Assembly (NCBI GenBank): GCA_025462735.1
Contig: JAOAPC010000002.1
Coordinates: forward strand, 1 to 62,530
DNA from: Acidobacteriaceae bacterium
GTDB taxonomy: Bacteria > Acidobacteriota > Terriglobia > Terriglobales > Acidobacteriaceae
DNA: 62,530 nucleotides
Direction of reading: 5' to 3'
Of this stretch, positions 35,173-35,936 are shown in pieces. Position 1 is the stretch's first letter; each line of letters begins with the position of its first letter. A model generated the notes under the pieces. That model was not told where the DNA came from, searched no databases, and worked only from the letters and a program-made list of their open reading frames with translations. Both the position numbers and the translations under genes were made by a program.

Positions 35173-35228
35173 CGCTCAAAAGCAACTGTGTTCGGCGTGA
35201 AAGAGGCAATTCTAGCTCGTTGAGACTA

Positions 35229-35273
35229 GTGCCGCAGGCACGGAATAGGAAAGCCCGGCATGTAAATGCCGGG
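35229..35273 (+). repeat. Left palindromic end of the transposase element
   Basis: Two stacked hairpins: GTGCC-GCA-GGCAC and CCCGGCA-TGTAAA-TGCCGGG (35254-35273). Both are found inverted at 35857-35901. The core GCCCGGC...GCCGGGC is also related to the terminator hairpin at 5758-5778. Confidence 0.7.
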
Positions 35274-35375
35274 TACGCGAATTCAATGATCTCCGAGTCC
35301 CGTTTAGGGAAGGCACCTTACCCTTGTGACAGCTGGCACAGACACGCGTTCACCGGATGTGGATATTTTTGAGAC

Positions 35376-35819
35376 GTGGCGCATAAGTATCCCAACATCA
35401 TCATTCATTTCGTCTTCAGCACCAAGGGACGCGAGGACCTCATCCCGGCCGAATTGCTTCCGCGGCTTTGGAAATATTTCGCAGGGATTGGCCAGAATCA
35501 TGGAATTCCCGTGCTCGCGGCGGGCGGAACTTCGAACCATTCGCATTTATTGATTGTGCTTCCGTCCGATTTGGCACCGGCCAAAGCGGTTCAGGTTTTA
35601 AAGGCGAACTCGTCGAGATGGATTCGTCAACACGGAATTGCATTTACATGGCAAGAGGGATACGGAGCGTTCAGCGTAAGTAGTTCGAACAAGGCCGTGG
35701 TCGTGGATTACATTGAGCACCAAGCCGACCATCATCGCAGTCGTTCGTATGAAACGGAATTCGAGGCAATGGTCCGGAAATCCGGAATGCAGTTTGATAT
35801 CGAGGATGCATTGGGTTAG
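35376..35819 (+). CDS. IS200/REP-associated tyrosine transposase (Y1_Tnp)
   Basis: GTG 35376 opens ~147 residues matching the Y1 transposase fold: YPNIIIHFVFSTKGREDLIP, the metal-binding pair in NHSHLLIVLP (HxH, with Ser instead of the usual hydrophobic middle residue), KAVQVLKANSSRWI, QEGYGAFSVS, and the helix VVDYIEHQADHHRSRS, which carries the nucleophilic Tyr. The length is full. RAYT proteins cut and move single-stranded REP/hairpin DNA; here the gene is itself enclosed by hairpins. It is probably active or recently so, since no lesion is seen. Confidence 0.9.
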   Translation: MAHKYPNIIIHFVFSTKGREDLIPAELLPRLWKYFAGIGQNHGIPVLAAGGTSNHSHLLIVLPSDLAPAKAVQVLKANSSRWIRQHGIAFTWQEGYGAFSVSSSNKAVVVDYIEHQADHHRSRSYETEFEAMVRKSGMQFDIEDALG

Positions 35820-35856
35820 TCGCGTCCCTTCGGGACTCGGGCTCATTCTTCATCGC

Positions 35857-35901
35857 CCCGGCACTGACGTGCCGGGCTTTCCGATATCGTGCCTGCGGCA
35901 C
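35857..35901 (-). repeat. Right palindromic end of the transposase element
   Basis: CCCGGCA-CTGACG-TGCCGGG, then GTGCC-TGC-GGCAC. It is the inverted counterpart of 35229-35273, with changed loop sequences but conserved stems, which suggests the stems are the functional part. Confidence 0.7.
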
Positions 35902-35936
35902 TGGAACTGGTCGCCAGCTTTACACTACCCAAGGCC

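Follow-up and report, generated by a model that had tools for sequence, protein, structure and literature searches.

Insertion sequences of the IS608 type have unmirrored ends, with the two hairpins on the same strand. In Table 1 of the published classification of Y1 transposases (PMC6006769), copies of IS subclass 1.1 average 99.4% identity, and subclass 1.2 is listed with the motifs YIKNQKEHH and WQ, a length of 148 aa, no REPs and a distribution mostly in Cyanobacteria and Bacteroidetes; for class 3 the same paper gives YV[VI]xEQ, W[TA] and a median length of 178 aa. TIRtrons (TIRYT) are Y1 genes lying in long inverted repeats, some self-complementary and some belonging to repeated families (PMC3733652). 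Three TIRtrons were reported in Koribacter versatilis, and the TIRs of one of them form a repeated family (Di Nocera et al., 2013, PMC3733652); Quentin suggested that TIRYT correspond to subclass 2.1 (PMC6006769). In the open RAYT, REP and IS200 literature, represented here mainly by titles and the openings of abstracts, no description of REPs of subclass 1.2 or of a three-hairpin unit was found.

The DNA analysed here (the window, 62,530 nucleotides) corresponds to positions 1 to 62,530 of contig JAOAPC010000002.1 of an Acidobacteriaceae bacterium (GCA_025462735.1). An element with mirrored hairpin ends had been predicted at 35229-35901, and these coordinates proved exact. The outer inverted repeat is 46 nt long (35228-35273 and 35857-35902, complementarity 87%). 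As single-stranded DNA both ends fold better than shuffled sequences (left, z = -5.22, 0 of 200 shuffles as good; right, z = -3.56, 1 of 200); the 36-nt stretches around the inner hairpins, folded alone, gave z values of 0.14 and -1.76, with no clear gain over shuffles. Sequence and fold give three hairpins per end in place of the two originally counted. Their order is C, A, B, with stems of 5, 8 and 5 bp, 12 nt between C and A and about 20 nt between A and B; B adjoins tnpA at both ends, and the right end mirrors the left. The internal second pair described earlier is present at 35297-35310 and 35824-35836, but it is the third hairpin of each end unit and not a separate pair.

The left unit (35227-35316, + strand; R1 match, with borders from 32 own-genome units) reads C-A-B toward the gene. 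Mini-hairpin C (35229-35241, +) has a 5-bp stem and a GCA triloop of the GNA form, and hairpin A (35254-35273, +) has an 8-bp stem, a GTAA loop of the GNNA form and AAAG as its 5' foot, both being assigned from sequence and DNA fold. Mini-hairpin B (35297-35310, +), assigned from sequence and lying within the R1 match, follows a CCGA foot (35293-35296), is followed by GGCAC and has a mismatched closing pair. The gene tnpA (35376-35819, +) has a GTG start and encodes a Y1 HUH transposase of 147 aa according to Pfam, NCBIfam, alignments and AlphaFold2. The right unit (35820-35903, - strand; R1 match) also reads C-A-B toward the gene and comprises, from sequence and DNA fold, mini-hairpin B (35824-35836, -; GAA triloop, CCGA foot at 35837-35840), hairpin A (35857-35876, -; GTCA loop of the GNNA form, AAAG 5' foot) and mini-hairpin C (35889-35901, -), identical to the left C. 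The suggestion that loops differ between the ends holds clearly for the inner hairpin B only; the outer hairpin C is identical, its GCA loop included, and A differs in one loop base, together with one compensated stem pair (T-A versus C-G). A search of the 62,530-base window with the unit covariance model R1 returned two sites at E <= 1, both of them the ends flanking tnpA (35224-35318, +, E = 1.9e-16; 35817-35906, -, E = 1.7e-17); both ends belong to the 38 training rows of R1, and units serving as model rows match their own models by construction.

Searched with a pattern for B and its foot, the own genome yielded 15 sites, against none for the reversed control; most of the 15 carry the whole triple unit, with one exception by eye (L018). 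R1 gave 56 matches in the own genome at E <= 0.1 and 51 at E <= 1e-5, a lower bound, as 150 of 1416 first-look candidates were scored. The 51 units consist of the two window ends, four beside paralogues on contigs C7 and C24, and 45 elsewhere; the family genes on C2 and C7 are flanked by units at both ends, the one on C24 only downstream. In 32 own-genome units (window ends included) the borders are sharp, conservation being at background within 1-2 bases outside them; they lie to the left of the CA-stem C and to the right of B-GGCAC. The A-B spacer looks weakly conserved between these copies. Solo copies of the ends had been anticipated, and the three-hairpin architecture does recur solo, but the exact outer hairpin has no element-type solo copy and what repeats is therefore the architecture, not that sequence. 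The outer hairpin as a sequence family was accordingly rejected: the exact 13-mer occurs three times in the genome, at the two ends and once inside a gene reading by eye as thioredoxin.

The architecture was described from 40 units taken from tnpA loci and solo places in the family, using a script that required three hairpins within set distances. C has a 5-bp stem and a GNA triloop in 34 of the 40, and the C-A linker measures 12-13 nt in 35. The 8-bp stem of A carries a GNNA loop in 26 units (counted from printed loops), GNCA and GNTA forms being included, and A is separated from B by 16-27 nt (script limit 15-27). The 5-bp stem of B carries a GNA loop in 27 units and GNNA in six others; its foot is CNGA in 21, and GRCA follows it in 28. 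The GNA and GNNA loops appear on the strand read toward the gene. Such loops on at least two G-C pairs are described as extraordinarily stable DNA mini-hairpins in PMC4686876, and this stability hints at folding of the C-A-B strand in single-stranded form. DNA folding energies for the two strands of the mini-hairpins were indistinguishable; the parameters seem blind to GNA loops. Among 70 strict units the four nucleotides before A are TTAG (22), ATAG (19), GTAG (12), AAAG (5) or others (12), an NTAG foot thus being present in 53; both window ends have AAAG.

Covariation was assessed in three alignments, each against 500 shuffles. A1 consists of 38 units (36 of the 40 and the two window ends), A3 of the own-genome matches aligned to the model (35 distinct rows), and A5 (cross-phylum) of 44 units (33 of 48 named and 11 family units; the 15 named units that we chose to omit are irregularly spaced or have an atypical middle hairpin). 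Cells changed on both sides of a pair numbered 89 in A1 (25.0 ± 4.1 shuffled), 54 in A3 (16.4 shuffled) and 168 in A5 (42.8 shuffled), and no shuffle reached these values (0/500 each); further pair types in A3 showed no excess (13, with 12.5 in shuffles). Pairing in A1 is 99.0% of 684 cells, and when partners were slid by 1-3 columns it fell to 37-48% in A1, A3 and A5. Since the rows of A1 and A5 were chosen for their hairpins, the percentage paired is inflated, and the evidence lies in how varied the compensated pairs are. The stems change by compensation, as structural constraint predicts.

tnpA is intact, and its GTG start aligns with the starts of homologues. The protein carries H55, H57, W92, Y112, Q116 and H119-H120, the Y motif being YIEHQADHH. 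It matched Pfam PF01797 (Y1_Tnp) with E = 3.6e-23 and NCBIfam NF033573 (IS200/IS605 transposase) with 59.3 bits (cut-off 55). A profile of 28 homologues searched against solved structures found the TnpA of ISDra2 (2xm3, 3.6e-14) and of IS608 (2a6m, 3.2e-13), and the RAYT structure 4er8 was absent from the ten matches at E <= 1. In a Foldseek search with the AlphaFold2 model of TnpA (pLDDT 92.8), rows 1-29 were IS200/IS605-type transposases by title and 4er8 followed in row 30. By motif, profile and predicted fold, TnpA is of the IS200/IS605 class rather than a RAYT, the clade with which a comparison had been suggested. Within this class, the motifs, the length of about 148 aa and the low copy number of subclass 1.2, as given in the published Table 1, are all found here (147 aa, three copies). 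Y---NP of class 2 RAYTs is missing from TnpA, and Y----Q and W[TA] of class 3 are replaced by Y---Q and WQ. Class 3 of Quentin had first been suspected, given the CnGA foot and the occurrence in Acidobacteria, and was ruled out by these protein motifs.

The homologue set comprised 112 genes, including the window gene and its paralogues, of which 110 were readable; L101 and L128, with internal stops, were excluded from the motif count and from alignment A4. WQ occurs in all 110 and Y[ILVM]xxQxxHH in 109. The HxH motif was caught by a simple pattern in 102 of the 110 (eight missed), and both of its histidines are invariant in a 79-row alignment. The serine reported in the HxH of TnpA is indeed there (H-S-H); it is ordinary variation, found in two of the 102 motif-caught homologues, the middle residue being otherwise V, I, A, L, C or M (one row seems misread).

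An ordinary autonomous insertion sequence of the IS200 group, with ends mirrored by chance and solo units that are decayed ends, would fit the class of the protein. It would also fit two same-genus homologues (72% identical, and 77% over 122 residues), which lie without the window's neighbours. We regard this explanation as unlikely: IS608-type ends are unmirrored, and 45 solo units stand against three genes. Moreover, the two other tnpA copies of the own genome are 50% and 42% identical to the window TnpA, compared with the mean of 99.4% for subclass 1.1 in PMC6006769; the near-identical multiple copies that mark that subclass are absent among the three. We infer that tnpA behaves as a low-copy, diverged resident in the manner of RAYTs and not as a proliferating insertion sequence. 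One same-genus homologue (L028, G126:C111) seems to have a frameshift close to its start, tblastn giving two pieces in different frames, with at least one end still recognizable.

The neighbours of tnpA in the window, an L,D-transpeptidase-like ORF and an acyl-CoA dehydrogenase, went unmatched in a comparison with the flanks of 29 homologues, which reached up to 1.5 kb. The dehydrogenase locus in eight relatives carries no unit; beyond the gene it could not be aligned with the window, and in one of the eight the sequence ends there, so that no empty site was readable in them. Seven near-identical inverted unit pairs in genome G154 were considered as fresh transposition of units and rejected. 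These pairs (L225-L231, on contigs C58, C103, C190, C312, C699, C753 and C309) sit inside seven near-identical copies of one element, about 304 bp long and bounded by inverted TCAGGACTCCTGATCC ends of its own, and they probably moved with that element.

Twelve Y1 genes were found in the own genome, three of the tnpA family and nine others, all nine with Y---NP. The presence of these nine would allow the units to be mobilized by class 2 RAYTs of the same genome and not by the window TnpA. No unit occurs at any of them, R1 giving one unit about 1.3 kb from one of the nine; at least two (L204 and L209, on contigs C17 and C12) have another hairpin type adjoining (GGGCACGA..TCGTGCC, by eye); and the units accompany the window tnpA family across phyla, as set out below. 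We consider mobilization by these RAYTs very improbable. Several REP-like systems may coexist in this genome.

A tnpA homologue at E <= 1e-10 was present in 63 of 150 sampled family genomes. Units were counted in 30 family genomes of our choosing, 14 of the 63 with tnpA and 16 of the 87 without (names were given for 20 of these 87), at most 143 candidates being scored per genome. The genomes with tnpA gave 136, 17, 39, 73, 48, 71, 110, 90, 10, 17, 27, 39, 16 and 9 units and those without it 0, 8, 56, 0, 4, 12, 0, 0, 0, 0, 7, 8, 1, 12, 18 and 1; numbers are higher with tnpA (Mann-Whitney p = 5e-5). The genome with 56 units (G004) has no tnpA of the window family at E <= 1e-10; it may have lost the gene, its units perhaps being an orphan repeat population. 

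In a collection of species genomes at least 585 relatives were found, and the best 80, those nearest to the acidobacterial query, were kept as named loci. Their labels are Acidobacteria, Planctomycetes, Verrucomicrobia, Bacteroidetes, Deltaproteobacteria, Calditrichaceae, Lentisphaerae, Chloroflexi, Zixibacteria and others; none of the 80 is labelled cyanobacterial. With the cross-phylum model R2, a unit was found within 300 nt on either side at 76 of the 80. The nearest upstream unit points toward the gene at 60 loci and away from it at 11 and is absent at nine; downstream the figures are 57, 7 and 16. Mirrored pairs point toward the gene at 52 loci and away at three or four. This first tally lacks two of 233 rows (L093 1-33 and a partial match, L148 2971-2993), and with the latter L148 counts as away on both sides, the upstream figures becoming 60, 12 and 8, with four pairs away. 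The 33 R2 rows taken from named loci stem from 24 of the 80; in a count that takes in this partial match, the 56 loci that gave no row include 52 with a unit, 32 pairs toward the gene and three away. As a control, 36 stretches not chosen for tnpA (458 kb) gave one match, a known unit of G128; L210 was kept out of this control, as a unit had already been seen there. Of 18 genomes that we chose from the 80, 17 had 6-149 units by R2 (at most 150 candidates scored in each), and Aequorivita, which bears tnpA, had none. The ends are thus conserved in related elements, as had been expected, with units at most sampled homologous loci. Because solo copies also exist, neither of the outcomes named beforehand as contrary to the original prediction (hairpins without other copies, or unconserved ends) was found.

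A strict hairpin detector gave 70 units toward the gene, 13 away and none in 1115 shuffled flanks. It superseded a first detector limited to perfect stems and loops of 3-5 nt, with which triples pointing toward the gene were found upstream at 18 of 32 family and 41 of 79 named loci and downstream at 15 of 32 and 51 of 79; those pointing away numbered 7 and 17 upstream and 9 and 22 downstream, with three in 222 shuffled flanks. The upstream flank aligned with the inverted downstream flank above the 99th shuffle percentile at 27 of the 32 family loci and 69 of the 78 named ones (median scores 73 and 66.5; two of 112 loci were left out, their flanks being too short). Same-direction alignments also exceeded this percentile, in 18 of 32 and 49 of 78 (medians 25 and 30), as did 84 of 330 flank pairs from different loci, because the loci share hairpin types and some contain arrays. 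In the 14 named loci compared, stems at the left and right ends match far more often than in permuted pairs (0 of 2000 permutations for each of A, C and B), and shared descent of both ends could also explain this match; in the window's family the test covered three loci only and was uninformative. At named loci, C and B of the same unit have identical stems in 48% of cases, versus 8% when permuted; in the window's family there is no excess (14% versus 13%).

Unit orientation was compared with the replichores in complete chromosomes. In Planctomycetes bacterium Pan216, 94 units at E <= 1e-5 form 43 clusters, 28 of them of one orientation: 10 on + and 1 on - before 3.8 Mb, 2 on + and 15 on - after it (25 of 28 consistent; Fisher p = 5e-5). 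Sampled GC skew before 3.8 Mb is mostly positive. If positive skew marks the leading strand, the GNA strand in Pan216 has the sequence of the lagging-strand template, which single-strand transposition would predict. Neighbouring genes show no replichore bias (25 with and 31 against, by crude ORF calls). The second complete genome, G128, showed none for its units (11 of 29 clusters on the leading-like strand); all 40 units found in it lie between 5.3 Mb, via 0, and 2.1 Mb, with none from 2.1 to 5.3 Mb, and its GC-skew minimum is at about 1.1 Mb. G095 and G032 (four and nine matches) had too few units for the replichore test. In the own genome the relation to contig GC skew has the opposite sign (5 of 30, i.e. 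25 of 30 on the C-rich strand; means of one to nine windows), local skew giving 11 of 30. Of 18 pairs of adjacent units on a contig, 15 agree in orientation, a value reached in 91 of 20000 permutations; judged from crude ORF calls, the units mostly run with the neighbouring genes (36 to 11). The Pan216 result therefore does not generalize: G128 is unbiased, and the own genome is opposite and gene-linked. By crude ORF calls, the upstream neighbour gene is co-oriented with the unit at 21 of 26 solo units in G000 and 19 of 28 in G160. In G160, tandem arrays lie at 5287996-5289239 and 7235957-7237374, with four inverted pairs at a 346-bp period and six direct units.

The 36-to-11 co-orientation with genes would suit units that are RNA elements (3'-UTR stabilizers, or processing or terminator-like hairpins), with the transposase a bystander that uses them as landing sites, and covariation suits RNA as well as DNA. 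Several observations weigh against this. The mirrored placement at 52 of 80 genes and the link between unit counts and tnpA would need another cause, as would the replichore bias of Pan216 without a gene bias, and the loops of A include GNCA and GNTA, outside the GNRA loops of RNA. To this explanation we assign a small probability.

An intact gene, mirrored units of about 85-90 nt, their solo recurrence, their flanking of tnpA in several phyla and the covariation of their stems are all present at the level of sequence. The reading that we consider likely on this basis is that the locus is REPtron-like and built on a Y1 transposase of the IS200/IS605 class (similar to subclass 1.2) that handles three-hairpin units as single-stranded DNA. 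On the model of IS608/ISDra2 and TnpAREP, as far as these are covered by PMC6006769 and PMC8266576, a unit would become single-stranded and fold into its three hairpins. TnpA would bind one strand of the exposed unit, recognizable by GNA loops on the mini-hairpins and GNNA on the middle hairpin, docking on A and perhaps also on the mini-hairpins. The bases 5' of A (usually TAG, AAAG here) might act as a guide selecting the cut, much as tetranucleotides do in IS608 and GTAG does in REPs. Tyr112, with a metal ion held by the HUH motif, would make the cut and form the covalent bond, and a unit or pair of units would be moved; in this way TnpA may have seeded the genome with units.

More tentatively, and at somewhat less than even probability, we propose a cross-phylum lineage of REP transposases, with a TnpA of IS200 type and distinct from the RAYTs, that reads a shape code in single-stranded DNA: a GNNA hairpin with an NTAG foot, placed between two direct GNA mini-hairpins. 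The stems would drift by compensation, each enzyme keeping its own set, and units would be copied as single strands at the replication fork. If this is right, there is a second enzymatic source of REP-like repeats beyond the RAYTs, a candidate maker is at hand for many palindromes in Acidobacteria, Planctomycetes, Verrucomicrobia and Bacteroidetes, and the GNA/GNNA DNA mini-hairpins of oligonucleotide chemistry have a natural use. Dozens of natural enzyme-repeat pairs, in which stems differ while geometry and loops are kept, make structure reading by Y1 enzymes directly testable.

With IS608 and ISDra2 the locus shares the transposase class, the HUH-Y-Q core and hairpin ends; it differs in having mirrored ends of three hairpins each and a low number of diverged copies. 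With subclass 1.2, as given in PMC6006769, it shares WQ, YIxxQxxHH, a length of about 148 aa and a low number of diverged copies; that subclass is listed there without REPs or terminal structures, whereas the window family has units at 76 of the best 80 loci, several from Bacteroidetes included. Class 3, in the same source, likewise occurs in Acidobacteria and Planctomycetes, with atypical hairpins having a CnGA foot and a high copy number in Solibacter. The CNGA foot of B in 21 of 40 units recalls these hairpins; the class 3 proteins have Y----Q, W[TA] and 178 aa, in contrast to Y---Q--HH, WQ and 147 aa here. TIRtrons resemble the locus in arrangement, a Y1 gene inside long inverted repeats; a three-hairpin unit, covariation, a loop rule or a strand rule was not found in the portions of PMC3733652 compared, and the TIRtrons of Koribacter may be an earlier sighting of a system of the window type. 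The arrangement of a REPtron is present, tnpA being flanked by repeats that recur in the genome as inverted pairs or solo. Class 2 RAYT REPtrons have in common with it a low-copy Y1 HUH gene, inverted hairpin repeats recurring solo or as inverted pairs, and a short guide-like tetranucleotide at the hairpin foot. They differ in protein, Y---NP against the Y---Q--HH of the window TnpA, which is nearer to IS200/IS605 in sequence and fold, and in repeat, a REP being a single hairpin of 20-40 nt with a GT[AG]G tag and the window unit a three-hairpin composite of about 85-90 nt. The scatter of such units through the genome and their place beside related genes in several phyla point to a widespread, little-described relative of REP-repeat systems.
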